33,356 bases of DNA from Rubrivivax sp. (GTDB lineage Bacteria; Pseudomonadota; Gammaproteobacteria; Burkholderiales; Burkholderiaceae_C). The position numbers were made by a program, and so were the translations under genes. This document shows, one piece after another, positions 1 to 23,593 of this stretch (its first letter is position 1; each line of letters begins with the position of its first letter). The notes beneath the pieces were generated by a model. That model ran no database searches. It saw only the letters and a program-made list of their open reading frames with translations, and was not told the DNA's origin. Location of the stretch: NCBI GenBank assembly GCA_016790425.1, contig JAEUPF010000135.1:1-33356 (forward strand), read 5' to 3'.

Positions 1-1
1 G

Positions 2-1378
2 ACCTGCCACAAGAGCACCACGAGCTGGGCCAGCGCCAAGGTCGACCACAGCACCTTCACCTCGGCCACCAACTGCACCACCTGCCACAACGGCACCAGC
101 GCCACCGGCAAGAACGCCACGCACATCCCGTCGGGCACGACGAACTGCTACGCCTGCCATAACACCACGACCTGGAAGCCGACCAAGTTCAACCACACCC
201 AGGTGCCGGTGACGGCGCAGTGCGCCACCTGCCACACCGGCGGCTACCCGCCGGCCGACGGCAAGAGCGCCACGCACACGCCTTATCAACTCGTGGCCAC
301 GCTGGCCAGCGCCAACTGCGACACCTGCCACAAGGCGGGCTACACGGCGTGGACGCCGGCGCGCCTGCACACCAACGCGACCGTGACGGCGCAATGCGCC
401 ACCTGCCACGCCGGCATCAAGCCGGCGACGCAGGTGCACACCGGGCAGACGGTGTGCGAGACCTGCCACAAGAGCACCACGAGCTGGGCCAGCGCCAAGG
501 TCGACCACAGCACCTTCACCTCGGCCACCAACTGCACCACCTGCCACAACGGCACCAGCGCCACCGGCAAGAACGCCACGCACATCCCGGTGGGCACGAC
601 CAACTGCTACGCGTGCCACAACACGACGACGTGGAAGCCGACCAAGTTCAACCACACCCAGGTGCCGGTGACGGCGCAGTGCGCCAGCTGCCACACCGGC
701 GGCTACCCGCCGGCCGACGGCAAGAGCGCGACGCACACGCCGTATCAGCTCGTGGCCACGCTGGCCGCCGCCAACTGCGACACCTGCCACAAGGCGGGCT
801 ACACCGCCTGGACGCCGGCGCGCGTGCACACCAACACGACGGTGACCGCGCAATGCGCGAGCTGCCACGCCAGCATCAAGCCGACGACCCCGGTGCACGT
901 GGGCCAGACCGTGTGCGAGAACTGCCACCGCAGCACCACCACCTGGCTCGGCGCCAAGACCGACCACACCACCTTCACCGCGGCGACCAACTGCACCACC
1001 TGCCACAACGGCTCGACGGCCACCGGCAAGAACGCCACCCACATCCCGGTGGGCACGACGAACTGCTACGCCTGCCACAACACCACGACCTGGAAGCCGA
1101 CCAAGTTCAACCACACCCAGGTGCCGGTGACGGGCCAGTGCGCCAGCTGCCACAGCGGCGCCTACCCGCCGGCCGACGGCAAGTCGGCCAGCCACCTGCC
1201 CTACCAGCTCGTGGCAACGCTCGCCGCGGCCAACTGCGACGCCTGCCACAAGGCGGGCTACACCGCCTGGACGGGCGCCAAGGTGCATATCAACGTCACC
1301 ATCACCGGCCAGTGCAAGACCTGCCACAGCGGCAGCTACGCCGGCCAGGGTGCGGTGGGCAAGCCGGCCAACCACATC
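2..1378 (+). repeat. 459-bp tandem repeats inside the multihaem cytochrome gene
   Basis: Three units are in view, starting at 2, 461 and 920, a constant 459 bp (153 codons) apart. Each carries six haem motifs in the order TCHK, TTCH, YACH, ATCH/ASCH, DTCH, ATCH/ASCH. Units 1 and 2 are nearly identical: bases 2-130 match 461-589 without a mismatch. Unit 3 is more diverged and degrades after about 1300. More units probably lie upstream of the window. The pattern fits recent duplication or gene conversion. Confidence 0.9.
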
Positions 1379-1654
1379 CCCGAGTCGCAGCTGCTCAATG
1401 GCGCGGCGATGGAGTGCAACGCCTGCCACACCACGACCACCAGCTGGTCGCAGCGCATGAACCACAACAACAGCCAGGGTGGCGGCGCCGGCTGGTGCAA
1501 GGGCTGCCACCTGAGCGGCACCAGCTACGCCGGCGTCGGTGACCGCAAGTCGCTGACGCACAAGACCAAGACGCCGCCGGCCATCGACTGCTCGGAGTCC
1601 GGTTGCCACCGGCCGCTGGGCACGCGAGGCACGACCTACACCAAATGGGACTGA
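2..1654 (+). CDS. Secreted multihaem cytochrome c with tandem haem repeats (5' end outside window)
   Basis: The reading frame is open from base 2, so the gene begins upstream; the GTG at 203 lies inside a repeat and is not a convincing start. The visible 550 residues hold 19 complete CXXCH haem-attachment motifs, a cut CXXCH at the left edge and a terminal CX4CH (CSESGCH). Nearly every motif is preceded by a His 6-14 residues upstream (for example in FNH, VDH, THIP, LHTN), as expected if haems are bis-His ligated. The motifs fall in a 153-residue (459-bp) repeat with six haem sites. Between motifs the chain is Thr/Ala/Asn-rich, with no membrane segment in view. Such proteins are exported by Sec and matured by the Ccm system in the periplasm; they transfer electrons and have no catalytic site that I can see. 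The stop codon overlaps the start of the next gene, suggesting joint expression. Partner and direction of electron flow are unknown. Confidence 0.9.
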   Translation, partial: TCHKSTTSWASAKVDHSTFTSATNCTTCHNGTSATGKNATHIPSGTTNCYACHNTTTWKPTKFNHTQVPVTAQCATCHTGGYPPADGKSATHTPYQLVATLASANCDTCHKAGYTAWTPARLHTNATVTAQCATCHAGIKPATQVHTGQTVCETCHKSTTSWASAKVDHSTFTSATNCTTCHNGTSATGKNATHIPVGTTNCYACHNTTTWKPTKFNHTQVPVTAQCASCHTGGYPPADGKSATHTPYQLVATLAAANCDTCHKAGYTAWTPARVHTNTTVTAQCASCHASIKPTTPVHVGQTVCENCHRSTTTWLGAKTDHTTFTAATNCTTCHNGSTATGKNATHIPVGTTNCYACHNTTTWKPTKFNHTQVPVTGQCASCHSGAYPPADGKSASHLPYQLVATLAAANCDACHKAGYTAWTGAKVHINVTITGQCKTCHSGSYAGQGAVGKPANHIPESQLLNGAAMECNACHTTTTSWSQRMNHNNSQGGGAGWCKGCHLSGTSYAGVGDRKSLTHKTKTPPAIDCSESGCHRPLGTRGTTYTKWD

Positions 1655-4527
1655 TCCGAAGCTGCGCTGCTGGCCGCCTGCCGCCGACCACCTTTCGCCC
1701 CTTGCCGACGCCCGTCATCGCTGCGCCCTGCCACCGGCAGGCCGCCGCGGCATTGCGTGCGCTGGCCTGGGGTTGCGTGGTGTGGCTCGTTACCGCGCTC
1801 GGCGCGCTCGCGCACGCGCAGCTTCTCGACGACCTCGACCTGAGGCGCGAGGGCGCCGATGCGGTGCTGGTGATCCGCCTCGTCGCCGAAGTGCAGCTCG
1901 TGCGCTCGGTGGGCAGCAGCGCCGGCGACCAGTCGCTGATCTTCTACCGGCTGCTGGCGTCGCCGCAGGGCGCCGGGCCGGCCCAGGCGCAGCGGCTGGC
2001 CGGCCGCAGCTCGCTGGCCGGCAGCAGCGGCATACCGGCCGTCACCGTGACCGACGAGGCCGAAGCCGGCATCGCCGGCGACGAGCGGCGGCTGCTCGTT
2101 CGCTTCGGCGAGCCGGTGGCGCACCGCGTGCGCGCCGGCCGCGGCGGCCGCCAGATCGAGGTGGTGCTGCTCGGCCGCGGGGCGGCCCTCGCCGCCGCCG
2201 CGCCGGCCGCGGCGCCGCCGGGTGCCGGGCCCGTGCCTGCGGCGCCGGGCCCGGCCGGCGGCAGCTACCGGGTGACGATCGACGCGTCCGAAGGGGGCCA
2301 GGGGCTGTCGACGCCGATCCCGGCGGCGTTGCAGCACCTGAATGTCTTCACCACCCGCCGCGTCGAACAGGGCCGCACGATCGTCGAGACGCACATCGGG
2401 CCGTTCGCCACGCGCAGCGAAGCCGAGTTCGTGCTGTCGGTCGCGCGGCTGCGCTTCCCGAACGCGCGGGTGACGCTGCCTTCGGGCGCGGCACCGGCGG
2501 CGGGCGCGGACGTGCCGACCACGACCTTCGTCATCCCGAGCGCGCCTTCGACGGATCCTCTGCGCCCGGCCGTGCCGCGGCCGGCCGCGCCACCGCCTGC
2601 GGCTGCATCGGCACCGCCTGCGGCGACCACAGCGCCCGCGGCTGCACCGGCACCGGTGCCAGCTGCTGCTGCCTCCGCACCGGCGCCAGCGGCCGCGGCT
2701 TCGGCACCGGCGCCAGCGGCGGCGGCATCGGCACCGGCCCCCGCGGCGGCGGCTTCCGCGGCAGCGCCGGCAGCGGCCGCGTCCGCCGCAGGTCCCGCCG
2801 CCGCGCTGCCGGAGCCGCCGTCAGCCACGCCCATGGCGCCGGCGGAAGTCGAAGCACGCGCGGCCGCGCTGATGGCCGCCGCGCGCGCTGCCATGTCCGC
2901 CGGCCAGTGGGATGCCGCGATCGAAGCGCTGTCGACGCTGCTCGACCTGCCGCCCAACAGCCTCTCGCGGGCTGCCCAGGCACTCATCGGCGAGGCGCGC
3001 CTGAAGGCCGGCGACACGGGGCGGGCGCGGGCCGAGTTCGAGGCCTTCCTGCGCCTCTATCCGCAAGGGCCGGATGCCGACCGCGCGCGTGCCGCGCTGG
3101 TGGAGCTCGGTGCCCCGGCGCCCGCTGCCACCGCGGGCGTTGCCGGCGCTGCGTCGGCACCCGACCCGCGCTACGGCACCACCACCACCGGCTCGGTCAG
3201 CCTCTACTACTACGGCGGGCAGTCGAAGATCCGCACGCAGGAGTTCCAGGACTCCGGCCTCGGCGGGCTGCCCACGCTCGTCTCCGACGCCACGCTGTCG
3301 GGCACCGACCAGCGGCAATGGGTGGGCAGCACCGACCTCAACTGGCGCCGCCGCGACGCCGACACCGACCAGCGCTTCGTCTTCCGCGACACCTACACGC
3401 GCGACGAACTGCGGCCCGACAAGAGCCGCAACCGCCTGAGCTCGCTGTACTACGACCACCGCTCCATCAGCGACGGCTGGCAGGTGCGCCTGGGCCGCCA
3501 GTCGCCGCTGGGCGGCGGCGTGCTCGGCCGCTTCGACGGCGCCTGGGCCGGCTACACCTTCCGCCCGCGCTGGAAGGCCAGCGTCGTCGCCGGCGTGCCT
3601 TCGGACGACCTGCTCGACGCCAGGCGCCGCTTCTACGGCGTGGCGCTGGACGCCGAGGCGCTGACGCCGAACCTGGGCGCATCGCTGTACGCGATGCAGC
3701 AGACGATCGACGGCGAGATCGACCGCCGCGCCGTCGGCACCGACTGGCGCTATGCCGACGGCGGCCTGTCGGGCACGGCGCAGATCGACTACGACGTCTT
3801 GCTGCGCGGCCTGAACATCGCCAGCGTCCAGGGCAGCTGGCAGCGGCCCGACAACAGCGTCTTCACGTTCCTGTACGACCGCCGCAAGCAGCCGCTGCTG
3901 TCGCTGGGCAACACGCTGTTCTTCGTCGACCCGAACCTGGCGACACGGCCCACCACGATCACCGAGCTGCTGGCCACCAGCAGCATCGAAGCGCTGCGCG
4001 AGCGCGCGCGCATGATCACGGCCACCTCCACGCAGGGCGCGCTCGGCTTCACGACGCCGGTGTCGAAGTCGTGGCAGGTGGGCCTGGACATCCGCCTGAG
4101 CAACACCACGGCCGTGGCGGCGGTTGCCGACATCCTGCCCACCGGGCTGCCGAGCACCGGCGACATCTGGAGCCTGGGTGGCCAGCTCATCGGCACCAAC
4201 CTGTACTCGGCGCGCGACACGCACGTCTTCATCGCCAACGCCGTCCGCGGCCCCACCTTCCACGGCGAACTGATTTCCTACAACAACGCCTCCACGCTGA
4301 GCGAGCAGTGGCAGCTCGAGCCATCGCTGAAGGTCTACCGGCAGAACGACGACACCGGACTCAAGATGACGCGCTGGACGCCGGGGCTGCGCGTCACCTG
4401 GCGCGTCGTCAAGCAGGTGGCTGTCGAGTCCGAAGTCAGCGTCGAGAGCGCCAAGACCAGCGGACCCAACCGCAGCGAGAGCTCGTCGCGCACCTTCTAC
4501 TACCTCGGTGCGCGTTTCGAGTTCTGA
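1645..4527 (+). CDS. Outer-membrane beta-barrel protein with SPOR and TPR domains (putative porin partner of the cytochrome)
   Basis: The chosen ATG at 1645 sits in ATGGGACTGA, overlapping the cytochrome stop codon by 10 bp; this gives 960 residues. A more upstream in-frame ATG (1603) would lie deeper in the cytochrome gene. A long N-region precedes a hydrophobic segment ending ALAHAQ (about residue 58), so a later TTG start is possible. After it come an AMIN-like beta-rich region (about 60-185), a SPOR-like domain (about 208-280), an Ala/Pro linker with 9-residue repeats, one or two TPR units (about 410-490) and a C-terminal region of about 450 residues. That last region has alternating aromatic and polar strands and ends in Phe (YLGARFEF), the usual outer-membrane barrel signature. 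The TPR-plus-barrel layout recalls BcsC/PgaA exporters, while linkage to a multihaem cytochrome recalls MtrB-type sheaths. The function as an electron conduit is inference. Confidence 0.72.
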   Translation: MGLIRSCAAGRLPPTTFRPLPTPVIAAPCHRQAAAALRALAWGCVVWLVTALGALAHAQLLDDLDLRREGADAVLVIRLVAEVQLVRSVGSSAGDQSLIFYRLLASPQGAGPAQAQRLAGRSSLAGSSGIPAVTVTDEAEAGIAGDERRLLVRFGEPVAHRVRAGRGGRQIEVVLLGRGAALAAAAPAAAPPGAGPVPAAPGPAGGSYRVTIDASEGGQGLSTPIPAALQHLNVFTTRRVEQGRTIVETHIGPFATRSEAEFVLSVARLRFPNARVTLPSGAAPAAGADVPTTTFVIPSAPSTDPLRPAVPRPAAPPPAAASAPPAATTAPAAAPAPVPAAAASAPAPAAAASAPAPAAAASAPAPAAAASAAAPAAAASAAGPAAALPEPPSATPMAPAEVEARAAALMAAARAAMSAGQWDAAIEALSTLLDLPPNSLSRAAQALIGEARLKAGDTGRARAEFEAFLRLYPQGPDADRARAALVELGAPAPAATAGVAGAASAPDPRYGTTTTGSVSLYYYGGQSKIRTQEFQDSGLGGLPTLVSDATLSGTDQRQWVGSTDLNWRRRDADTDQRFVFRDTYTRDELRPDKSRNRLSSLYYDHRSISDGWQVRLGRQSPLGGGVLGRFDGAWAGYTFRPRWKASVVAGVPSDDLLDARRRFYGVALDAEALTPNLGASLYAMQQTIDGEIDRRAVGTDWRYADGGLSGTAQIDYDVLLRGLNIASVQGSWQRPDNSVFTFLYDRRKQPLLSLGNTLFFVDPNLATRPTTITELLATSSIEALRERARMITATSTQGALGFTTPVSKSWQVGLDIRLSNTTAVAAVADILPTGLPSTGDIWSLGGQLIGTNLYSARDTHVFIANAVRGPTFHGELISYNNASTLSEQWQLEPSLKVYRQNDDTGLKMTRWTPGLRVTWRVVKQVAVESEVSVESAKTSGPNRSESSSRTFYYLGARFEF
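2674..2808 (+). repeat. Five 27-bp repeats encoding a 9-residue Ala/Pro linker
   Basis: Units begin at 2674, 2701, 2728, 2755 and 2782. Each encodes a variant of SAPAPAAAA and separates the SPOR-like region from the TPR region of the barrel protein. It is probably a flexible or extended periplasmic linker that can vary in copy number. Confidence 0.85.
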
Positions 4528-4536
4528 GCGCCGACG

Positions 4537-7500
4537 CTACGGCCGGCGGCACCAGTAGCTTGGCGCCGGCGCCGTCGGCACGGTGATGCCCGCCGGCACG
4601 CGGATCAGCGTGCCCGCCGGCGTCGGGGCGGTGAGGCTCGTGGCGGTGTGGCAGCTGCTGCAGTTCAGGCCCGCCCACGCCGCGTGCGGGTTGTTCGCGT
4701 TGTAGGCACGGTAGGTGGCGTCGGCGCGCGCGAAGTCGCAGTCGATGTAGCCGAACGAGAAGCCGTAGCCGGCCGAAGCTGCGCCCTCGTTGCCCGCCGC
4801 GTCGACGGCCATCGCCGTGAACGACCAACCCGCTGAGGGCAGGCCGGCGCCCGAGGGCGTACCGGCGGCCAGCGTGCCGCCTTCGTTGTTGACGAGCGCG
4901 AACGGCGAGGGCAGGTCGACGAGGAAGCAGTTGCTGCCGCAGCTGCCGCTGCTGGCCACCGCCACCGTGCTGCCGTTGCGCTTGACCCGCAGCGCCACGC
5001 CGGTGCCGAACGCGCCGCTGAACTGGATCTGCACGCGCGGCGAGTTGTCGTTGGTGAGGCCGCCGTTGGCGATGCCGTTGCCGTTGGGGCTGGCACCGGC
5101 CACGGTGGTGTTGGGCATCACCGAAGTGGTCGCGTTCGAGATCGTCGCCGTCGGCGCCGTCACCACGTTCAGCCGGTATTCGCCGCTCGTGTTGCCGTAG
5201 GCGGTGCCGTTCTCCACGCGCGCCACGTAGCGCCGCTGGCCGGTGCCGATGTTGGCGTCGGTGACCGACCACAGCGTCGAGCCGGCGCTGCCGCCGGCGT
5301 TCACCGACGGGCAGGTGCCCGTGCCGAACGTGGCCGGGGTGCAGGCGCCCAATGAGGTCGGCCGGTACAGGCGCACGCTGGCGCCCGCCGGCAGCACCGC
5401 GCCGAGCGTGCCGCTGACCGTGGGCGTGGTGTCGAAGACGGCGTTGTCCAGTGGCACCGGCCCCGTGATCGTGACGACGGAAGGCAGCGGCGCGATGACG
5501 TTGACGGTGGAAGCGGTGCTTTGCGTGCCGGGCGCGCCGGTCGCATCGGCGATGCGCACCGCGTAGCTGTACGAGCCCGGCGCCAGCGCCGCGGGCTCGG
5601 TGTAGGTCCAGCTCGTGCCGGTGGGCGCGACGAAGACGGTGGTGGTGCTGCCGCCGAGCACGCGGCGCAGCTGCAGCGTCTCGCCGCTGGCCAGCGCCCG
5701 CGCCAGCGTGCCGGCGACGCGCGGCGTCGAGTCCGCCGTGTTGTTGCCGGCGACGGCCACGTTGGCGTCGTCGAAGATGCCGCTCACCGCGCCCGTGGTC
5801 GCCGTGGCGATGGGTACGCCCGACGTCGCGCTCGGGGCACCGTAGACGGCGGCGTTGGCCGTCTTCTCGATGTTGGCGCTGAAGAAGTAGGTGGCGCTGG
5901 CCGGTAGCGCGCCGCTGGTGAAGGCCCAGTCCTTCAGCGCGCCGAGCGTGGCCGCGCTGATCGTGCCCGCGACCACGGCCGTGCCGCCGCGCGAAGGCGC
6001 CACCACCGGGCTCGTGGTGTTGCGGTAGATGACGAGCTGCTCGTCGGCGGCCAGGGCGCGCGCGATCGTGCCGCTGACCGCGGGCGTGGTCGTGTAGACC
6101 GAGCCGATCGTGGCACCACCGGCGGGCACCGCGATGCCGGCGACAAACCCGATCGTCGTGCCCGCGTCGACGATCGGCACGCTGCCCGGTGCCACCGTCA
6201 CCTGGCGCGTGCTGCCGGTGGCCGGGCCGGTCTGGCCGGCTTCGTCGACGACGCGCGCCGCATACGTCAGCGCCACCTGCGTGGCCGGCGGCGTGATGGG
6301 CACCGGCGTCGGCTCGGTGTAGGTCCAGGCCGTGCCGGCGAAAGGCGCCAGCGTCGCGACGACGCTGCTGTTGCGCAGGATCTGCAGGCGCTCGCCCGCG
6401 CCCAGCGGCGCAGTCAACGTGCCGCCGATCGTGGGCGTGGTGTCGGCCGTCGTCGGGTTTGCGCCGACGAGCACGCCGTTCACGTCGTCGGCGACGGTGG
6501 CGACATCGGCGCGCTGGGTCGGCGCGATGGTGTCCACCGTGACGCGGTAGGCCGCCGAAGGCGAGCCCAGCACCGCGCCCGCTTCGACGCGGGCCGTGTA
6601 GGCGTAGCTGCCGTCGCTCGCGCCGGGCTCCTGGAAGGTCCAGGTGAGCCCGCCCGCACCCAGGGTGGCGGTGCCGCGCGCGGCGCCGTCGCGCAGCACG
6701 CGTACCAGCGCGCCGGCGGGCAACGCCGAGCCCAGCGAGCCGCTGAACGTCGGCCGCGTGTCGTTGGTGGCACCCCCGTTGGCGATGACCGCATTGCTTG
6801 CGTTCACGGCCTGTGCAATGGTGGCGCCCGGCACGCCGGCCAGCAGCGTGAGCGTGGCCGCTGCGGAGGTCGAGCCGAGGTTGCCGGCGGCGTCGGCCAC
6901 GCGCGCGCGGTAGGTGTGCAGGCCGAGCGTCAGCGGCGCCGGCTCGGTGAAGCTCCAGGTGCCGCCGCCACTCACCGTCGCCGTGCCGGCGACGGTGCCG
7001 TTGCGCAGCACCTGGACCGCTTCGTCGGCAGCGAGCGCGCCGGCCAGCGTGCCGTTGATGCGCGGTGTCGTGTCGGTGGCGAAGCCGCCGATGGCGATCG
7101 CGCCGAGCGCGTCGTCGGCGAAGTCGCCCACCGCCGCGGTGGCGGTGGGTGGCGTGCCGTCGACGACGAGCGTGAAGGCATTGCTCGTGGCGCCGAAGGC
7201 GTTGCCGTTGACCACGCGCGCCGTGTAGCGCAGCGTCCCGTCGCCGGTGCTGTCGAGGAAGCGCCAGGTGGTGCCGCTCACCGTGGCCGCGCCGAGCACG
7301 GTGCTGCCGCGGGTGACTGCGAGCTGCTGGTTGGGGCCGAGCGGGGCCGAGAGCGTGCCGCGCAGTTCGGGCGTGCGATCGTTGGTCAGCGCGCCGCTGG
7401 CCAGCGTGGCGCCGGCGTCGTCGACGACGCCGGTGATGCTGGCCGTGGTGGCCAGCGTCGGCAGCTCGGCCGCCTGCGGCTGGGCACAGGAGATGCTGGC

Positions 7501-10053
7501 GTCGTTCAGCGGGCGCGCGATGACACTGTTGTGGCAGGTGGCGCACACCGTGCCCGGCGGGGTGAAGACGTGTCGCGGCGGCACCGTGCACGAATTCGTG
7601 GCCGGGCTGGGCGCGATGAAGCTGCGGCCGGGCAGGTCGGCGGGTGCCGTGCAGTTGACCCAGCCGCCGCTGTCGGCGAAGGGCAGGCGGCCGCTCGGCG
7701 TGAGCACCGGGTAGTTCAGCCGCGCGGCGTTGTGGCACAGCGCGCAGTCGGTCTCGGCGTGCACCAGCGAGCCCGTGTCGCTGCGGTGCGCCGAGATCGG
7801 AATCACGCAGGCAGCGGCGCCGGCGGGCACCGGCGGCGCCGCCGTACGCAGGTCGACCAAGGCCTGGTCGAGGAAGGTGTGGCACGAGTGGCAGTCCAGG
7901 CGCGGGCCCTGGTTCTGCGGCCGGTGCTGCGCGGCCGGGTTCTGCGGGTCGAACGACTCGGCCACGCGGCCGCGGATCTTCCACATGCCGCCGCGGTAGT
8001 CGACGCCCATCGCGGTGAGGCGGTCGAACGGCCGCGTGCCGTAGCCGACGAAGCCGCCGGGCATGAGGTCGCGCACCGGCGGCAGGCCGAGCACGCGGCC
8101 GGCCTCGAGGTCGCGCAGCACCGCGCCGGCCGTGATGTCGAAGTACACGCCCCACTGGAAGACCTGCCCGTTGGCCAGCAAGACGGCGAACACGCCCTGC
8201 TCGGTGATGACCTTGCGCACGGCCGCGCCGGGCGGCAGCCCGCGCACCTGCACCGGGCCCGGCGAGCCGCCGCGGTAGGCGCTGGAAGGGTCGCCGGCGT
8301 CGAAGGCCGCCTCGTCAGCGGGGAAGCTGCCCCAGTGCCAAACGCTGCCGTCGCGCTTGAGCACCACCGCGTCGTTGTCGCGGGCGCTGATCTGCACCAC
8401 CTGCGTGAGGCCGGGCACGGCCGCGGGTGTCTCCTGCACGCCGTCGCGCGCGCCGTTGCCCAGGAGACCGAAGCCGCCGTTGCTGCCCCACGACCAGACG
8501 CTGCCGTCGTCCAGCAGCGCATAGGAGGCCATGTTCGTGGCGGCCACCGCCAGCGCCGCTCGCGGCAGCGCCACGCGCAGCGGCGTCGTCGTGCCCGCCA
8601 GCGCCGCAGGCCCCTGGCCCTGGCCGAGCTGGCCGAACGTGTTGTCGCCCAGCGTGTACACGGCGCCGTCGGCCATGCGCATCACCGTGTGCGAGAAGCC
8701 GCCGGCGGCGTGCGTCAGCGCGCCGGGCAGCGTGATCTCGACGGCCGCCCCGGCGGTGGAGCGGCGGCTGCCCGTGCCGAGCTCGCCGTTGACGTTGTCG
8801 CCGATCGCATACACCTTGTGCCGCGGCCCCAGCGCGTCGGCCTTGTAGAAGCCGCCGCCGTGGGCGTTGTTGGCGTACAGCGCCAGCGCTCGCTGTTCGC
8901 CGGCGGGCAGGCGGTCGAACTGTTGCCCTGCCGACCAGCCGTTGCGGTTCTCCGAGACCCAGCCCGAGACGGTGCTGAAGGCGCGGCCGGCCTGGCTGAT
9001 CGAGCCGTCGAAGAGGTAGCCCTCGTAGCGGACGTTGCCGTAGTTCACCACCCGCGGCAGCACGTCGAGTGCTTCCTGCGCACCGAAGCGCGCCGCCTGC
9101 TCGGCCAACGCCGAGGTGAGTTCGCTGGTCAGCGTATTGGGGTCGTAGGTGCGGCTGCTCGCCGAGCCTGCGGGCAGGTCGCCGTTGCGGCCGTCGATGC
9201 GGCCGTCGAGCAGGTCCTCGGCGAGCTGGCGCACCGCGTCCAGCGTCGGCGTCGCCGAGTCGCCGTTGTGGAACGAGGCCTGCTTCGAGAAGGCGCCGTT
9301 GACCAGGCCATAGCGGCCGCGGGGGTCGGTGCGCATCGAGCCGGCTCGCAGGTCGCGGCTCTTGATGAACGGCAGCCGCGCGATGTCGTCCACCTGCAGC
9401 GCAGTCGGGAAATGCTCGTTCAGCGCCTGGCGGACGCGCTCGTTGGCGGCACGCACCTGGGTCTTGGTCAACGTGCTGCGCGAAGTGGGCGCGATGCCGC
9501 TGCCCACGCTTTCGGGCGCGCTGCCTTCGGTGAGCAGCCGCCAGGCCGCTTCGGTGAACGGCGTGATGCCGATGTTGCGGTCGATCTGCGGCACCCAGAC
9601 GCGGATCTTGCGGTCGGCCGGGAACGGCACTTCGGTGTCGCGCCCTTCCTCGTAGTAGGTGGCCGTCGGTGTGCCTGAAAGCTCGATGCGCAACCCGCCG
9701 CGATAGGCGCGACCGGGCTTGATCGTCACCATGCCCTTGACCGCGTCGGTGAGGGCGCAGCCCAGCTGCGTGCCGTCGTCCAGGTAGACGCAGACGTTGG
9801 CGTTGCGGAACTGCCCGAAGTCGCCGCCGGCGCCGACGCCGCCGTCGCCCGATGCGCCACCGTCGCCGACGCCGCCGCTGCCGTCGCCCCCCGTGCTTTC
9901 CCAATTCAGGTTGCCGGTGTCGGCAAAGCCGGTGAAGACGCCGAGCTGCTCGGCCGCGGGGTCGCCGCCGTCGCCACCACCGCCGCCGCAACTGCCCAGG
10001 GCCAGCAACACCAGCGCGGCCAGCGGAGCCAGGGCGGGAAAGCGCACTTTCAC
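4537..10053 (-). CDS. Large haem-binding lipoprotein with RCC1-type and bacterial Ig-like repeats
   Basis: The start is GTG at 10053, with AGGAG 7 bases upstream; the frame is open further upstream but that part is low-complexity and lacks a signal. The 1838-residue product begins with a lipoprotein signal ending LGSC (lipid Cys22) and a Gly/Asp-rich stretch, so it should be anchored in a membrane, most likely the outer one. Residues about 411-650 hold RCC1/beta-propeller-like repeats (GDNVNGELGTG, GDNTFGQLGQG, WSWGSNGGFG). CXXCH haem motifs lie at Cys721, Cys770, Cys837 and Cys1798. About eight bacterial Ig-like units of roughly 100 residues (each with a GTLxxxL core and WxxTEP) fill about 870-1740. 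It converges on the barrel gene with 9 bp between stop codons. A surface-exposed electron-transfer or adhesion role is plausible but unproven; the exact combination is unfamiliar to me. Confidence 0.82.
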   Translation of the reverse strand: MKVRFPALAPLAALVLLALGSCGGGGGDGGDPAAEQLGVFTGFADTGNLNWESTGGDGSGGVGDGGASGDGGVGAGGDFGQFRNANVCVYLDDGTQLGCALTDAVKGMVTIKPGRAYRGGLRIELSGTPTATYYEEGRDTEVPFPADRKIRVWVPQIDRNIGITPFTEAAWRLLTEGSAPESVGSGIAPTSRSTLTKTQVRAANERVRQALNEHFPTALQVDDIARLPFIKSRDLRAGSMRTDPRGRYGLVNGAFSKQASFHNGDSATPTLDAVRQLAEDLLDGRIDGRNGDLPAGSASSRTYDPNTLTSELTSALAEQAARFGAQEALDVLPRVVNYGNVRYEGYLFDGSISQAGRAFSTVSGWVSENRNGWSAGQQFDRLPAGEQRALALYANNAHGGGFYKADALGPRHKVYAIGDNVNGELGTGSRRSTAGAAVEITLPGALTHAAGGFSHTVMRMADGAVYTLGDNTFGQLGQGQGPAALAGTTTPLRVALPRAALAVAATNMASYALLDDGSVWSWGSNGGFGLLGNGARDGVQETPAAVPGLTQVVQISARDNDAVVLKRDGSVWHWGSFPADEAAFDAGDPSSAYRGGSPGPVQVRGLPPGAAVRKVITEQGVFAVLLANGQVFQWGVYFDITAGAVLRDLEAGRVLGLPPVRDLMPGGFVGYGTRPFDRLTAMGVDYRGGMWKIRGRVAESFDPQNPAAQHRPQNQGPRLDCHSCHTFLDQALVDLRTAAPPVPAGAAACVIPISAHRSDTGSLVHAETDCALCHNAARLNYPVLTPSGRLPFADSGGWVNCTAPADLPGRSFIAPSPATNSCTVPPRHVFTPPGTVCATCHNSVIARPLNDASISCAQPQAAELPTLATTASITGVVDDAGATLASGALTNDRTPELRGTLSAPLGPNQQLAVTRGSTVLGAATVSGTTWRFLDSTGDGTLRYTARVVNGNAFGATSNAFTLVVDGTPPTATAAVGDFADDALGAIAIGGFATDTTPRINGTLAGALAADEAVQVLRNGTVAGTATVSGGGTWSFTEPAPLTLGLHTYRARVADAAGNLGSTSAAATLTLLAGVPGATIAQAVNASNAVIANGGATNDTRPTFSGSLGSALPAGALVRVLRDGAARGTATLGAGGLTWTFQEPGASDGSYAYTARVEAGAVLGSPSAAYRVTVDTIAPTQRADVATVADDVNGVLVGANPTTADTTPTIGGTLTAPLGAGERLQILRNSSVVATLAPFAGTAWTYTEPTPVPITPPATQVALTYAARVVDEAGQTGPATGSTRQVTVAPGSVPIVDAGTTIGFVAGIAVPAGGATIGSVYTTTPAVSGTIARALAADEQLVIYRNTTSPVVAPSRGGTAVVAGTISAATLGALKDWAFTSGALPASATYFFSANIEKTANAAVYGAPSATSGVPIATATTGAVSGIFDDANVAVAGNNTADSTPRVAGTLARALASGETLQLRRVLGGSTTTVFVAPTGTSWTYTEPAALAPGSYSYAVRIADATGAPGTQSTASTVNVIAPLPSVVTITGPVPLDNAVFDTTPTVSGTLGAVLPAGASVRLYRPTSLGACTPATFGTGTCPSVNAGGSAGSTLWSVTDANIGTGQRRYVARVENGTAYGNTSGEYRLNVVTAPTATISNATTSVMPNTTVAGASPNGNGIANGGLTNDNSPRVQIQFSGAFGTGVALRVKRNGSTVAVASSGSCGSNCFLVDLPSPFALVNNEGGTLAAGTPSGAGLPSAGWSFTAMAVDAAGNEGAASAGYGFSFGYIDCDFARADATYRAYNANNPHAAWAGLNCSSCHTATSLTAPTPAGTLIRVPAGITVPTAPAPSYWCRRP

Positions 10054-13865: not shown

Positions 13866-14031
13866 GTCGGGCGCCGATCCTAGTGGCCGGGGGCCTCGCC
13901 TCACAACCGTTGCCGATGGGAAGCCGGCCACCGCCGGCCCCCGCTGCCGGGGGGGGGCGGCGCCGGTGTTACCGTCCGCGTCGCGCACGGCAGCGGCGCC
14001 GAGGGCTGCGTCTGCGTTTCGAAGAAGAACC
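13866..14031. promoter_or_regulatory. Divergent control region between the caspase gene and ccmA, with a G8 tract
   Basis: This 166-bp gap must hold the promoters for both directions. It contains a GC hairpin made by a C5 run and a G8 run (G at 13950-13957) and a GAAGAA purine stretch just before the ccmA ATG that may act as its ribosome site. No clear sigma70 -35/-10 pair is visible for ccmA. Confidence 0.4.
13877..13882 (-). promoter_or_regulatory. Putative -10 element (TAGGAT) of the caspase gene
   Basis: On the minus strand CTAGGATCGGCGCC lies just upstream of the ATG at 13865, which would make the transcript almost leaderless. Similar CTAGaAT-GGCGCC strings precede other genes in this window. 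No good -35 box is visible. Confidence 0.35.
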
Positions 14032-14805
14032 ATGCCCGTGGCGCGGCTCGGCACTGCCGCCGCGGGTGCCTTGCTGCTCCCCTTCCACGTGTCCGACCGG
14101 CCTCCTTTGCAGCCGCTTGCGGCGACCGGCCTGCGCTGCGAGCGCGGCGAACGCGCCCTCTTCGACGGCTTCGACCTGACGCTTTCGCCCGGCGAGATGG
14201 TGTGGCTGCGCGGCGCCAACGGCCGCGGCAAGACGACGCTGTTGCGCACGCTGGCGGGCCTGGCCATGCCGGCGGCGGGCCAGTTGCGATGGGGCGGCGA
14301 GCCGCTGGCCAAGGCCGCTGCCCAGTGGCGCTCGCGCCTGGTATTCCTCGGCCACGCCAACGCGCTGAAAGACGACCTGACGGCGGCCGAGTCGCTGCAC
14401 TTCGCCGCGCGGCTGGCCGGCGCGCCGCGCAGCGCCGGCGAAGTGCGCGCGGCGCTGGCGGCCCTGGGCGTCGCCGCGATGGAGCGCCGCGCCGCGCGCA
14501 CGATGAGCCAGGGGCAGCGCCGCCGCGTCGCGCTGGCCCGCCTGGCGCTCGCGCCGCGGCCGGCGCTGGCGCTGCTGGACGAGCCGTTCGACGCGCTCGA
14601 CGACGACGGCATCGACCGGCTGGCGCGCCTGCTGGCCGACCTCGTGGCCGCCGGCGGCAGCGTGCTCTTCACGAGCCACCAGCAGATCGACCGCCTGCGG
14701 CCCGTGCCGCGCGTCGTGATGTTGCCCGACGCCCCACCGCCGGCCGGTGCATCGTCCGCAGCCGCCACGACTGCCGCGCGCCCCCCGCAAGGCCCGGCGC
14801 AATGA
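14032..14805 (+). CDS. ccmA: Cytochrome c maturation ABC transporter ATP-binding subunit CcmA
   Basis: This 257-residue ATPase of the CcmAB complex powers release of the haem-loaded chaperone CcmE from CcmC in the inner membrane. Visible motifs are Walker [10 protein letters not shown] (61-69), a signature MSQGQ in place of LSGGQ (158-162), Walker B LALLDEP (178-185) and the switch His in TSHQ. The family normally starts close to the ATGLRCERG segment, so the first 25 or so residues are an extension. GTG at 14089 is an alternative start, but ATG at 14032 has a purine-rich GAAGAAGAA upstream. The stop overlaps the ccmB start in ATGA. It is the first gene of the ccm cluster. Confidence 0.93.
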
Positions 14806-15470
14806 GCGGCTTCTTCGCCACCGTCATGGCGCGCGAACTGCGCCTGGCCGCCCGGCGGCCGGTGGAAGCGCTGCTGCCGGTGGTGTTCTTCGTCGTCGCG
14901 GCGAGCCTGTTCCCGCTCGGCGTCGGCCCCGAGCCGCAGACGCTGCGCCACATCGCGCCCGGCGTGCTGTGGGTGGGCGCGCTGCTGGCGGCGATGCTGT
15001 CGCTGGCGCCGATGTACGGCTCGGACCATGCCGACGGCTCGCTCGACCAGTTGCTGCTGGCGCCCGAGCCGGCCTGGCTGCTGGCACTGGCCAAGGCGGT
15101 GGCGCACTGGCTCACGCACGGCCTGCCGCTGGTGGCGGTGAGCCCGCTGATCGGCCTGATGTTCGGGCTGCCGGGGCCGGCGATCGCGCTGCTGGCCGCC
15201 ACGCTGGTGCTCGGCACGCCGATCCTGAGCCTCCTGGGGGGCTTGTCGGCGGCGCTGACGCTGGGGCTGCGCAGCGGCGCGCTCCTGAACCTGCTGATCG
15301 TGCTGCCGCTGGCGGTGCCGGCGCTGATCTTCGGCTCGGGCGCGGTTTCGGCGCTGGAGGCCGGGCAGGCGGTCGACGGCCACCTGTCGCTGCTCGCCGC
15401 GCTGTTCATCGCCACGCTCGTGGGCACGCCGCCCGCCACGGCGGCGGCGTTGCGCATCGCGACAGGCTGA
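14802..15470 (+). CDS. ccmB: Haem exporter permease subunit CcmB
   Basis: This 222-residue inner-membrane protein has about six hydrophobic segments and is the membrane half of the CcmAB ABC transporter. The N-terminus ([17 protein letters not shown]) and the [20 protein letters not shown] loop are typical of the family, whose usual length is about 220. Its ATG overlaps the ccmA stop by 4 bp, so translation is likely coupled. A gap of 150 bp follows before ccmC. Confidence 0.95.
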
Positions 15471-15577
15471 ACGCCGCACCCGCGCGGGCGGGGACCGCCG
15501 CCGCCCTCGTGCAACGGCCGGTTTGACCTGATGCAATGCAGGTGCAATCTGCGCCACCCCAGCGCGATGCATGGCCT

Positions 15578-15583
15578 AACATG
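15578..15583 (+). promoter_or_regulatory. Possible -10 element (TAACAT) ahead of ccmC
   Basis: The 150-bp gap between ccmB and ccmC is the longest inside the cluster. It contains CCTAACATGCGCC, which resembles the CTAGAAT-GGCGCC strings before other genes here, and a TTGACC hexamer at 15523-15528 that is too far away to pair with it. An internal promoter is possible but weakly supported. Confidence 0.25.
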
Positions 15584-15620
15584 CGCCGCCCCGGGTTCAC
15601 CGGTCGTCGCCCCTGTCTCC

Positions 15621-16442
15621 ATGGATCCCCGCGCCGCCTCCCGCGCCAGCCCTGCGTTGCGCCTGTTCACCTTCGCCGCGCCGATGCGTTTCTATCGGCT
15701 GGCGGGAGCGTCGCTGCCGTGGTTCTGGGTGGCGGCATTGGCCTTCGGTCTTGCAGGTCTTTACATCGGCTTCTTCGTCGCGCCGACCGACGCCACGCAA
15801 GGCGAGAGCTACCGCATCATCTTCATTCACGTCCCCGCGGCATGGCTGTCGATGCTGCTGTACCTGACGATGGCCTTCTGGGCCGCCATCGGCTGGGCCT
15901 TCAACGCCCGCATGGCTTCGGTGCTGGCGCGTGCCATCGCCCCCACCGGCGCGATGTTCACCGGCCTGGCGCTGCTGACCGGCGCGCTGTGGGGCCAGCC
16001 GACCTGGGGCACCTGGTGGGTGTGGGACGCGCGGCTCACCTCCGAGCTGCTGCTGCTGTTCCTTTACCTCGGCTACATCGCGCTGGTGAACGCCATCGAC
16101 GACCCGCGGCGTGCCGACCAGGCCGGCGCGCTGCTGGCGCTGGTGGGCAGCATCAACGTGCCGGTCATCTACTTCTCGGTGAAGTGGTGGAACACGCTGC
16201 ACCAGGGCGCCACCATCAGCATGACCGCCGCGCCGAAGATGGCGCAGACGATGCTCACCGCGATGCTGCTGACGACGCTGGCCTGCTGGGCCTACGCCTT
16301 CGCGGTGATATTCATGCGCGCGCGTGCCTCGATCCTCGTGCGCGACCGCCACGCGCAGTGGGCGCGCGAGCTGGCCGTCGCCAAGGCGGCCGACCGCGGC
16401 GCGGCGCCGCCGCACGCCGGACCGCGGGAGCGCACCGCATGA
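15621..16442 (+). CDS. ccmC: Haem handling protein CcmC
   Basis: CcmC is the six-helix inner-membrane protein that presents haem to CcmE for covalent attachment. The 273-residue product has the tryptophan-rich signature [13 protein letters not shown] (129-141) and the two conserved periplasmic haem-ligand histidines at 70 (FIHVP) and 194 (LHQGATIS). The ATG at 15621 was chosen because it gives the family length; the frame is open to 15531 but the extra stretch looks non-coding. The stop overlaps the ccmD start (ATGA). Confidence 0.95.
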
Positions 16443-16672
16443 ACTGGGGCAGCGCGGGCGAGTTCTTCGCGATGGGCGGCTACGGCGTCTACGTCTGGGG
16501 CTCGTACGGCGTTGCATTCCTGGCGCTGCTGGTCGAGCCCTGGCTCGCGGCGCGCCGGCACCGGCAGGCCCTCGTCTTCGTCGCCGAAGCGGCGCTCGAA
16601 GGCGATGGCACCGAATCGACGGGGAATGCGGACACCGACGGTGCCGCCCCCGAGGAGTCTTACCGATCATGA
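16439..16672 (+). CDS. ccmD: Haem exporter accessory protein CcmD
   Basis: This 77-residue protein has one membrane helix (about 16-38, [20 protein letters not shown]) followed by a basic segment (LAARRHRQ), the usual CcmD pattern. CcmD stabilises CcmE with CcmABC and helps release holo-CcmE. The acidic tail after residue 50 makes it slightly longer than many homologues. It overlaps ccmC and ccmE by ATGA on both sides. Confidence 0.9.
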
Positions 16673-17160
16673 GCACGATGAAGCCGCGCCATCGCCGGCT
16701 GGCCATCGCGGGCGTGCTGCTGCTGGCCGCCGGCGCCATCGCCGCGCTGGTGTTCAACGCCTTCCGCAGCAACCTCGTCTTCTTCTATTCACCCACGCAG
16801 GTGGCGGCCAACGAGGCGCCGGCGGGGCGCACCTTCCGCCTCGGCGGCCTGGTGGAAACCGGCAGCGTCAAGCGCGACGGGGTGCGCGTCACCTTCGTCG
16901 TCACCGACTCGGCCAAGACGGTGCCGGTGCGCTTCGACGGCGTGCTGCCCGACCTGTTCAAGGAAGGCAAGGGCGTCGTCGCGCAAGGCAAGCTCGAGAG
17001 CGGCGTCTTCGTCGCGCGCGAGGTGCTGGCCAAGCACGACGAGAACTACATGCCGCCCGAAGCGGCCGACGCCGTGCACCGCGCCACGCAGGCGCAGGAG
17101 CGCGCGGCGCGCAGCCTGGTGAGCGAGGGCAACGCGGGCGCCGCGGGCGGCAAGCCATGA
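16669..17160 (+). CDS. ccmE: Haem chaperone CcmE
   Basis: CcmE is a periplasmic haem chaperone held by one N-terminal helix (about 11-30). The 163-residue product has the OB-fold body and the haem-binding motif with His123, which forms the covalent bond to the haem vinyl group, and Tyr127 ([10 protein letters not shown]). A GAGGAG about 11 bases upstream serves as ribosome site inside ccmD. The start and stop overlap ccmD and ccmF by ATGA. Confidence 0.96.
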
Positions 17161-19238
17161 TTCCCGAGATCGGCCACTTCTTCCTCTGGCTGGCGCTGGG
17201 TGTGGCGCTCTTGCTGGCCACGCTGCCGCTGGCCGGCACGCTGCCGGTGCCGCTGCCGTTCGGTGCCGGCGCACGGCTGCGTCCGCACTGGGTGGCGCTG
17301 GCGCGGCCGCTGACGTACCTGTTCGGCTGCACGGTCGTCGTCGCCTACGGCTGCCTCACCGCGGCATTCGTGCGCAACGACTTCTCGGTGCTGTACGTGG
17401 CGCTGCACAGCAACGTCGACCTGCCGCTGCCCTACCGCATTGCCGGCGTCTGGGGCGGCCACGAAGGCTCGCTGCTGCTGTGGCTGATGCTGCAGGTGGT
17501 GTGGATGAGCGCAGTGGCGCGCTTCAGCCGCACCCTGCCGGCCGAAGTGGTGGGGCGCATCCTCGGCGTGCTGGGCATGGTGGCGGTGGGCTTTCTGCTC
17601 TTCACGCTGACCACGTCGAACCCGTTCGAGCGCCTGTTTCCGGTGCCGGCCAACGGCCGCGACCTCAACCCGCTGCTGCAGGACCCGGGCATGGTGATCC
17701 ACCCGCCGATGCTCTACACGGGTTATGTCGGCTTCTCGGTGGCCTTCGCCCTGGCCGTGGCCGGGCTCATCGGCGGCCGGCTCGACGCCACCTGGGCGCG
17801 CTGGACGCGGCCCTGGACCGTCACCGCCTGGGCCTGCCTGACGGTGGGCATCGCGCTGGGCAGCTGGTGGGCCTACTACGAACTCGGCTGGGGCGGCTGG
17901 TGGTTCTGGGACCCTGTGGAGAACGCCTCGTTCATGCCCTGGCTCGTGGGCACCGCGCTCATCCACTCGCTGGCGGTGACGGAGAAGCGCGGCGCCTTCA
18001 AGTCGTGGACGGTGCTGCTGGCGATCATCGCCTTCTCGCTGTCGCTGCTGGGCACCTTCCTCGTGCGCTCGGGCGTGCTGTCGTCGGTGCACGCCTTCGC
18101 CACCGACCCGGCGCGCGGCCTGTTCATCCTCGGCTTCCTGGTCACCGTGGTCGGCGCCTCGCTGGCTCTGTACGCCTGGCGCGCACCGACGGTGGGCCTG
18201 GGGTCGCGCTTCCACTGGGCCAGCCGCGAGACGACGCTGCTGGCCAACAACGTGATGCTGGTGGCCGCCTGCGGCGCCGTGTTGCTGGGCACGCTGTACC
18301 CGCTGGCGCTGGACGCGCTGGCGCTGGGCAAGATCTCCGTCGGGCCGCCCTACTTCGAGACCGTGTTCGTGCCGCTGATGGCGCCGCTGGTGTTCCTCAT
18401 GGGCGTGGGGCCGCTGGCGCGTTGGAAGCAGACCGAGCTGCCCGACCTCGGCCGGCGCCTGCGCTGGGCCTTCGCGGTGGCGGTGCTCGCCGCCGCGGCG
18501 CAGGCGCTGCTGCTGCGCGGTTCGGCCAACGGCGTGTCGCCGCTGGCGGTGCTCGGCCTCTTGATGGCGTGGTGGGTGGTGGCCTCGCTGGCGGTCGATG
18601 TCTGGGAACGGCTGCAGCCGCGCTCGCTCGCCGCCGGTGCGTCGGCGTGGGCTCGCCTGAAGGCCGCGCCGCGCGCCTTCGTCGAGCGCGCGCCGCTGGT
18701 GCCGCGCGCCGTGGCGGCGATGTGGCTTGCGCACCTGGGCGTGGCGGTGTTCATCTTCGGCGTCACGATGGTCAAGAGCTTCGAGATCGAGCGCGACGTG
18801 AAGATGCGCGCCGGCGACTTCGTCACCATCGGCGAGCTGACCTTCACACTGCAAGGCCTGCGCGAGCGCGAGGGCCCGAACTACCGTGCCGTGCAAGGCT
18901 GGGTGGAGGTGACTCGCGGCGAGGGCGCGGCGAAGTCCAAGGTGGCCGACCTGCTGCCCGAGAAGCGCGTCTACCGTGTGCAGGAGAACCCGATGACCGA
19001 GGCGGCCATCGCGACGCGCCTGATGGGCGACCTGTACGTGTCGCTGGGCGAACCGGTGGACGACGGCGCGGCGTGGATCGTGCGCGTGTACATCAAGCCG
19101 TTCGTCGACTGGATCTGGGGCGGCTGCGTGCTGATGGCGCTGGGCGGGCTGCTCGCCGCCGGCGACCGGCGCTACCGGGCGCGCGCCGAGGCCAAGGCCG
19201 CGCAGGCGCTGGTCTCCGGCGCCGCCGCGAAGGGGTGA
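17157..19238 (+). CDS. ccmF: Haem lyase subunit CcmF
   Basis: This 693-residue polytopic inner-membrane protein transfers haem from CcmE to apocytochrome CXXCH sites with CcmH and CcmI. It has the WWD signature [19 protein letters not shown] (244-262), conserved histidines including 182 ([12 protein letters not shown]) and 270, many membrane helices and a periplasmic C-terminal domain before a last helix. The length is typical. The ATG overlaps the ccmE stop (ATGA); ccmG follows after 6 bp. Confidence 0.97.
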
Positions 19239-19244
19239 GCGCGC

Positions 19245-19892
19245 ATGGCTGCTGATTCCTCGCTGCAGCCGCAGCAGCGTCCGGTTGCCGTCGACGCGCC
19301 CGGCGTTGCCGCGGGTGCGTCGGCAGTCCCGGCGGCGGCGCGTGCGCCGGCGCCCCGGCGCCGCCGCTTCTGGCTCTTCCTCACGCCGCTGGCGGCCTTC
19401 GCGCTGCTGGCGGTGCTGCTCGGCCGCGGCCTTTCGCTCGACCCGCGCGAAGTGCCCTCGCCTTTCGTCGGCAAGCCGGCGCCGGCCTTCGTGCTGCCGC
19501 GCCTGGACGACGGCAACGCCACCGCGAAGCTCGAAGACTTCGCCGGCAAGGTGTGGATCCTCAACGTCTGGGCGAGCTGGTGCGGCCCCTGCCGCGACGA
19601 GCACCCGCTGTGGGTGGCGTTCGCGCGCCGCAGCAAGGTGCCGCTGGTCGGGCTGAACTACAAGGACAAGCGCGCGGCGGCCCAGCCGTGGCTGGCGCAG
19701 CTGGGCGATCCTTATGCGATGTCGCTCTTCGACGCCGACGGCAAGGTCGCCATCGACTGGGGCGTGTACGGCGTGCCCGAGACCTTCATCATCGACCGCC
19801 AGGGCATCGTGCGCCTGAAGCACGTGGGCCCCATCACGGCCGAGCTGCTGCGCGACAAGATCGAGCCGCTGCTGAAGAAGATCGATGGCTGA
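19245..19892 (+). CDS. ccmG: Thiol:disulfide interchange protein CcmG/DsbE
   Basis: This membrane-anchored thioredoxin-fold protein keeps apocytochrome CXXCH cysteines reduced for haem attachment. The 215-residue product has a membrane helix at about 42-60, the active site WCGPC (Cys113, Cys116) and the cis-proline region GVPETFIID. About 40 Ala/Pro-rich residues precede the helix, which is longer than usual; no closer ATG exists. The last 8 bases overlap the start of ccmH. Confidence 0.95.
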   Translation: MAADSSLQPQQRPVAVDAPGVAAGASAVPAAARAPAPRRRRFWLFLTPLAAFALLAVLLGRGLSLDPREVPSPFVGKPAPAFVLPRLDDGNATAKLEDFAGKVWILNVWASWCGPCRDEHPLWVAFARRSKVPLVGLNYKDKRAAAQPWLAQLGDPYAMSLFDADGKVAIDWGVYGVPETFIIDRQGIVRLKHVGPITAELLRDKIEPLLKKIDG

Positions 19893-20394
19893 GCAGCGCG
19901 CGTCGGTATCGTTCCTGCGTGCCCGGCTGCTCGCTCGTGTCGTGCTGCTGGCGGCGGCGCTCGCGGCCGCTGCGGCCGGCGCGGTGCAGGCCGCCGGCCC
20001 GGCGCAGCCGCTGGCCGCCGACCCCCAGCTCGAGGCGCGCGTGCTGAAGGTGACCGCCGAGCTGCGTTGCCTGGTGTGCCAGAACCAGACCATCGCCGAT
20101 TCGCACGCCGACCTCGCGGTTGACCTGCGCAACCAGGTGCGCGAGATGCTGCGCCAGGGCAAGACCGAAGCCGAAGTGCTGGCCTACATGACCGCGCGCT
20201 ACGGCGACTTCGTGCTGTACCGGCCGCCGATGAAGGAGAGCACCGTGCTGCTGTGGCTGGGGCCGGGCCTGTTGATGGCCGGTGGCTTGGCAGCCCTGGT
20301 GATGGTGCTGCGCCGGCGCGCCCGCGCCGGCGACGAGGCCTTCGAGCCCGATCCCGGCGTGGAAGACGACGACGAGCGCGGCGAGCGCCGCTGA
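19885..20394 (+). CDS. ccmH: Cytochrome c maturation thioredoxin-like protein CcmH
   Basis: The 169-residue product has a signal peptide or anchor (about 13-37), the redox motif LRCLVCQNQ (Cys62, Cys65) and a C-terminal helix (about 120-142). It forms the haem lyase with CcmF and CcmI and resolves disulfides with CcmG. Its start overlaps ccmG by 8 bp. A short acidic cytoplasmic tail ends it. Confidence 0.96.
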   Translation: MAEQRASVSFLRARLLARVVLLAAALAAAAAGAVQAAGPAQPLAADPQLEARVLKVTAELRCLVCQNQTIADSHADLAVDLRNQVREMLRQGKTEAEVLAYMTARYGDFVLYRPPMKESTVLLWLGPGLLMAGGLAALVMVLRRRARAGDEAFEPDPGVEDDDERGERR

Positions 20395-20422
20395 AACGAG
20401 CAACCGACCCGACGACGAGCCG

Positions 20423-23248: not shown

Positions 23249-23593
23249 CGCGGCGCGTCCTTGGGCAGGCGAAAGGGCGGGGGCGGGCGGCCGGGTGCGT
23301 CGCGCCGTCGGCACAGAGGGCGCCGATTCTAGGAGTGGGGGGCGCGATGCGCGGGCAGCGGGGCGGCGTGCGACCCGCCGCCCGCTGCAGGTGCCGCCGC
23401 CGCATGGCGTGGCCGCCCGGCGGCGGCGCGGGCACGCATCCTGCCCGCGCAGGTCGGCGCGAACAGGCTGCCTCGCCGGCCGCAATTCCGCACACCGGCC
23501 GGGGCGCCCGCGGCGCAACATGGCGCCGCCGTTCACACGCTCTTGCGCCACGCCGCCCCCCTTCCAGCCTGCCCAGCCACCCACTTCATCGCC
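23249..23593. other. 345-bp divergent gap with GC hairpins
   Basis: No gene is supported here. A 12-bp stem with one bulge pairs 23355-23367 with 23377-23388, and a looser GC inverted repeat follows at about 23390-23435. The left part holds the likely promoter and leader of the FAD dehydrogenase gene. I see no clear promoter for the small gene on the right. Confidence 0.45.
23326..23331 (-). promoter_or_regulatory. Putative -10 element (TAGAAT) of the FAD dehydrogenase gene
   Basis: On the minus strand CCTAGAATCGGCGCC matches a sigma70 -10 box in five of six positions. Transcription would start near 23319, leaving a leader of about 70 bases. No good -35 box is seen. Confidence 0.4.

Follow-up and report, generated by a model that had tools for sequence, protein, structure and literature searches.

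A probable PCC3-type porin–cytochrome cluster, split between contigs, lies beside ccm genes and a caspase–lipoprotein pair in Rubrivivax sp.

The left end of a contig from Rubrivivax sp. raises the question of whether three neighbouring genes, for a multihaem cytochrome, an outer-membrane barrel protein and a large lipoprotein with haem motifs, form an undescribed system for electron transfer across the outer membrane, as a sequence-only reading had proposed, or belong to a type already on record. The window, that is, the whole stretch of DNA that was analysed (33,356 nucleotides), is the entire contig C40 of this genome (G000), and its features are collected in Table 1. All three genes are real, as judged from open reading frames, CXXCH motifs and shuffling. 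The cytochrome frame is open at the contig start and lacks a start codon; its 550 residues contain 19 whole CXXCH motifs, one that is cut by the contig edge and one CX4CH, and its shuffled residues gave a mean of 0.21 CXXCH. The ATG of the barrel gene overlaps the stop codon of the cytochrome (1652–1654). The lipoprotein gene is convergent with the barrel gene, and its product has a lipobox-like LGSC together with RCC1 and Big_13 matches above the Pfam cut-off, so that the RCC1 and Ig repeats originally read into it hold. Its four CXXCH motifs were reached by 0 of 2000 shuffles. Since shuffles of the cytochrome and the lipoprotein rarely or never reach the observed counts, the haem motifs of both are not there by chance.

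Table 1. Position, strand and supporting features of the genes discussed in the window
Feature	Position	Strand	Features and context
Repeat multihaem cytochrome, 3' part, at the extracellular-MHC position of PCC3	1..1654	+	ORF 2-1654, CXXCH, repeats
PCC3 outer-membrane porin (probable)	1645..4527	+	Barrel of 22 strands behind TPR and two beta-rich domains at the N-terminus (predicted)
Large lipoprotein, RCC1 + Ig-like (Big_13) + 4 CXXCH	4537..10053	-	No match in the other PCC3 loci examined
WD40 + caspase (Peptidase_C14) protein, 1184 aa	10311..13865	-	Upstream of lipoprotein, same strand
Complete cytochrome c maturation (ccm) cluster	13933..21742	+	ccmC downstream of the porin in 18 of 39 distinct loci from relatives
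FAD-linked oxidase	21821..23584	-	Homologue directly after porin in L060, L061

A porin–cytochrome type termed PCC3 was described in 2017 (He et al., PMC5566968). In the accessible text of that paper, its membrane protein (IMP) has about 300 residues and 5 TM, with an SGXXG motif on TM4 and WX3HX13H on TM3 and TM5. The gene order is IMP, periplasmic multihaem cytochrome (MHC; cyt-c_p), extracellular MHC (cyt-c_e) and porin, as in Slit_1446-1449 (PMC12016527, in the portion available). The parts of the literature available to us further give 21, 24 and 27 haems for the periplasmic cytochromes of Gallionellaceae PCC3 (PMC10734462), cytochromes of 10–57 haems for PCC3 in the Sphaerotilus–Leptothrix group (PMC13386937), and 22–39 residues per haem. 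When the first 3 kb of the window was searched against its own genome, an 88% match was found on contig C153, stopping 15 bases short of the C153 end. At this end lie, on one strand and in order, a 313-aa membrane protein (IMP), a 27-CXXCH cytochrome and a repeat cytochrome represented by its 5' part, which has 25 CXXCH and an N-terminus resembling a signal peptide. This last piece is probably the 5' part of the window cytochrome. We infer the adjacency of C153 and C40 from their contig ends; a strain mixture in the draft genome may be an alternative to the join. Across the joined contigs, the order IMP, periplasmic MHC, extracellular MHC and porin is obtained.

The proteins agree with the PCC3 description as well. 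The IMP has five hydrophobic segments (putative TM, by hydropathy), with WX3HX13H at TM3 and TM5 and SGVAG, a form of SGXXG, at TM4; it matches no Pfam family. The putatively periplasmic cytochrome on C153 has 27 CXXCH in 686 residues, which is one of the three published Gallionellaceae numbers and fits the PCC3 range of about 21–27 haems. The repeat cytochrome is built of 153-aa units with 6 haem sites each, and T, A and G are its commonest residues; repeats, small residues and many haems are features of the extracellular MHC, and the protein would lie outside the cell. Residues per haem are 25.4 and 28.9 for the cytochromes. The window cytochrome, which had been taken as periplasmic, thus moves to the extracellular place in the PCC3 order, and the periplasmic place goes to the 27-haem protein on C153. 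On gene order and motifs, with the reference loci of Leptothrix cholodnii SP-6 and Sideroxydans lithotrophicus ES-1 compared by description, we consider it highly probable that the window start lies inside a contig-split PCC3 cluster, an electron conduit, and that the lipoprotein is a separate gene. The SP-6 and ES-1 loci were not among the best 80 of 426 IMP relatives discussed below.

Compared with Slit_1446-1449, the four-gene order, the IMP motifs, the haem-rich repeat cytochromes, the low residue-to-haem ratio and the large barrel are alike, whereas the extracellular MHC is here split by the assembly. The searchable parts of the published PCC3 text do not mention TPR, SPOR or AMIN on the porin; here TPR is predicted. 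The IMP of PCC4 shares the SGXXG and WX3HX13H motifs, but in the accessible description this type has three MHCs in the periplasm and none outside the cell (PMC5566968). The proposal of a porin–cytochrome electron conduit is supported by the anatomy and the PCC3 match, and its novelty is not, the type having been described in 2017 (PMC5566968).

The haem number of the joined repeat cytochrome can be given as a range. Alignment of the C153 and C40 ends in registers 0, 1 and 2 gave 87.4, 87.0 and 86.4% identity, and neighbouring repeats within C40 are 87.3% identical (for a stretch of C153, this measure gave 73.8%). Because the registers score like neighbouring C40 repeats, overlap and tandem copies look the same, and the protein would carry 28, 34, 40 or 46 or more CXXCH, depending on the overlap register (sum of unit counts). 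In relatives, 28 CXXCH are found in the nearest two (L060 and L061) and 46 in L028, and frames clear of contig ends hold from 17 to 70. The repeat cytochrome with 70 CXXCH is one closed frame (L035, 11486-17614, minus strand); L118 and L119 each contain 72 CXXCH in a frame, both frames running off the available sequence. For a plasmid origin, the porin was compared by tblastn with 72,556 plasmid records and had no match at E 1e-5.

The barrel expected from the sequence was recovered by structure modelling. AlphaFold2 (26 sequences) predicted a barrel of 22 strands preceded by two beta-rich domains and TPR-type helices, with a mean pLDDT of 76 and a pTM of 0.51. The domain labels that had been given to this protein fared unevenly in Pfam: TPR is retained, with one model at E 3.8e-7 yet under its cut-off and another just above cut-off, and AMIN and SPOR had no match and are suggested only by how the predicted structure looks. 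The N-terminal region of the porin recurs in 33 of 40 porin entries, in several of them only in part; shared by relatives, it belongs to the type as found in this group and marks no new type. In one relative (L033, G048:C73), a 10-kb contig carries two PCC3-type porins in convergent orientation.

MtrCAB, MtoAB and PioAB share the principle of a barrel plus multihaem cytochromes, and a complex of the MtrAB/MtoAB/PioAB type would follow the same logic, with a cytochrome beside a barrel. They differ in barrel family and in their decahaem cytochromes, and the genome has a separate locus of this kind on contig C88 (G000:C88:94830-103703; L157 4831-13704), where an MtrC-like decahaem cytochrome, a second decahaem cytochrome in the MtrA place, an MtrB barrel and an eight-haem cytochrome lie in a row. 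MtrB_PioB (PF11854) had no match in the window barrel with E values up to 0.01 but scored 447 bits on the C88 gene, and the two barrels have no similarity to each other (best E 2.4). With both the family test and the pairwise comparison negative, we dropped an MtrAB-type identity, to which we attach almost no probability.

Could the barrel be no static sheath around a haem chain but an export channel, through which the giant repeat cytochrome is threaded to form a wire at the surface? TPR helices joined to a barrel recall the cellulose-export protein BcsC, which Foldseek placed at ranks 17 and 32 against the PDB (9b8a, 9b8h); the top match was the pilus usher FimD. The cytochrome, for its part, is a chain of 153-aa repeats of the widely varying length seen among the closed frames (17 to 70 CXXCH). 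However, the 50 listed PDB fold matches are outer-membrane barrels of many kinds, with query TM-scores of 0.29 or lower and identities of about 10%, and represent generic barrel likeness; a PDB profile search with the barrel alignment returned mainly TPR proteins and no porin. Moreover, c-type haem attachment takes place in the periplasm, and an exported chain would therefore need to pass through the barrel loaded with haem. We consider the export channel unlikely and continue with the barrel as the porin of a PCC3 cluster.

Conservation of the set was followed in relatives with the barrel and with the IMP. Of 200 family genomes, 14 matched the barrel query, one of them the own genome. In 8 of the 13 other family loci, the IMP and periplasmic MHC stand in line with the repeat cytochrome and porin; in the remaining 5 (L027, L029, L031, L033 and L038), the contig ends inside the repeat cytochrome. 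Searching named genomes with the IMP alignment yielded 426 relatives, and the following counts cover the best 80 of these 426. A periplasmic-MHC match extended over at least 300 residues in 76 loci, was short in 3 and was missing from 1 (L115). A separate second MHC frame was found downstream in 64, 36 of which touch the sequence end, and all four genes occurred in order in 25. Isolates with an intact cluster include Piscinibacter defluvii (L135) and Caenimonas koreensis (L083). In another 5 loci (L098, L100, L102, L107 and L113), the layout of the set differs: a related barrel precedes the IMP and a 24-haem MHC by about 5 kb, and a second MHC is lacking downstream. These five, along with L115, indicate that the IMP is not always a marker of the full set. 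In a draw of 300 order genomes, the IMP profile matched 40, of which 15 gave one long piece at E below 1e-60 and 2 gave two pieces; the rest were short or weak and are likely other members of a wider family. The window's own genome has one further weak IMP match. Two searched genomes of the window's genus (G094 and G195) contained neither the PCC3 porin nor the IMP, a patchy presence. One contig filed under Candidatus Methanoperedens (L136, JAPZAO010000098.1) carries a PCC3 IMP and periplasmic MHC, which reflects either a binning error or transfer.

The lipoprotein does not follow this distribution. It had been assigned as the outer cytochrome in a new three-gene system, with the window cytochrome in the periplasm and the barrel as sheath, and two observations speak for that arrangement: the barrel and lipoprotein genes lie tail to tail, about 10 bases apart, and the four CXXCH motifs are kept at aligned positions in a homologue from genome G098 (53% identity over 1538 aligned residues), so the haem sites, judged from this alignment, are probably real. 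But the lipoprotein was found in 0 of the 13 family PCC3 loci and in 0 of the best 80 of 426 named IMP loci, within the available DNA, so that conservation of the three genes together breaks down at this gene. The barrel was present in 30 of these 80 named loci, and four contigs were common to both locus sets; the barrel entries number 43, or 39 distinct once the four double contigs (L028/L068, L034/L129, L037/L082 and L039/L081) are dropped. In the 43 entries, some of which extend only shortly beyond the porin, neither the lipoprotein (searched as four pieces, Ig part included) nor the caspase gene was detected at E 1e-6. Near full-length matches to the lipoprotein were confined to the own genome and G098 among the 200 family genomes and to the own genome among the 300 order genomes. 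In G098, the PCC3 porin and IMP searches were empty, and G199 of the same genus, as a control, was positive in both. These points, and the recurrent pairing of the lipoprotein with a caspase gene upstream of it, make the three-gene system very unlikely.

In both the window and G098, a WD40-caspase gene is located upstream of the lipoprotein (the G098 caspase part by tblastn). The window protein has a His and a Cys in surroundings that we take to be caspase-like. The lipoprotein N-terminal domain, which has no Pfam name and gave a single-sequence model with a mean pLDDT of 35, was traced to 14 regions outside the window, chosen from family- and order-genome matches. A WD40-caspase gene is present in 8 of these regions (L140-L147), upstream on the same strand in 6 and downstream in 2 (L142 and L143); the N-domain of L147 was seen only in the search of the 200 family genomes. 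By the same test, no WD40-caspase was found at the wider N-domain relatives L148, L149 and L158-L161, which argues against strict pairing. The own genome contains a second WD40-caspase with an N-domain protein, on C110 (L141). The pair in the window is thus like the others in domain content, and like 6 of the 8 in layout, but the four haem motifs of the window and G098 copies have no counterpart in L141 and L143, the two further copies in which motifs were counted. We found no description of a WD40-caspase and lipoprotein pair in the literature; the one paper that came up concerns cyanobacterial retroelements. The lipoprotein seems to be a separate caspase-linked gene, and this genome is the only one, among the loci seen, where it separates the porin from the ccm genes. 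A speculative idea of low probability is that the tetrahaem lipoprotein and the WD40-caspase act together as a redox-sensing protease module of the cell envelope; such a haem-bearing version of the pair would have settled between the conduit and its ccm genes and could respond to the state of the conduit.

The full ccm cluster noted about 4 kb away proved complete: ccmA (as ABC_tran), B, C, D, E, F, G (as Redoxin), H and I are all present, the first frame starting about 3.9 kb past the 10053 boundary of the lipoprotein. Oriented like the porin, ccmC lies 1.3–1.5 kb downstream of it in 20 of the 43 barrel entries (18 of 39 distinct) from relatives. It is absent there in 17 distinct entries with at least 2 kb beyond the porin, and the other 4 (L060, L061, L083 and L124) reach less far; L139, with a weaker CcmC match elsewhere, was counted as lacking ccmC. 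The nearest relatives, L060 and L061, have the FAD-linked oxidase homologue directly after the porin, and in the window the two genes are separated by about 17 kb (4.5–21.8 kb) containing the caspase pair and the ccm genes. The window is a PCC3–ccm island with a caspase–lipoprotein pair interposed. No paper treating PCC3, multiheme and cytochrome c maturation together was found.

The full cluster would thus run from the IMP through the 27-haem periplasmic cytochrome and the giant repeat cytochrome (28 to 46 or more CXXCH) to the porin. The IMP may bind two b haems and exchange electrons with the quinone pool, and the periplasm would be bridged by the long periplasmic cytochrome. In the outer membrane, the 22-strand barrel would insulate the crossing; beyond it, the repeat cytochrome would conduct on the outside of the cell, with a solid or soluble partner as electron donor or acceptor. 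We favour an electron conduit between the quinone pool and the cell surface, in one direction or the other, with haem loading, cytochrome locations, electron flow and direction as we infer them. PCC3 has been called functionally unverified (PMC12442390, in the part available). As a PCC3 role, Fe(II) oxidation is doubtful, since both PCC3 clusters of S. lithotrophicus ES-1 are downregulated on Fe(II) (PMC8788666) and Slit_1448 is 0 in each column seen of a proteome table (PMC12016527), in the accessible portions of these papers. Photo_RC had no match in the own genome (82% complete), which speaks against photosynthetic use.

With the MtrB-type locus on C88, extracellular electron transfer fits the organism, which very probably exchanges electrons with its outside. 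The window is now placed in a named electron-transfer type, PCC3, of putative function, which in this group is often linked to ccm genes (ccmC downstream in the 18 of 39 distinct loci). Where contigs break within the repeats, the remainder of such clusters is hidden, and surveys of draft genomes will undercount both PCC3 and its haems. The caspase–lipoprotein pair is a lead separate from PCC3.
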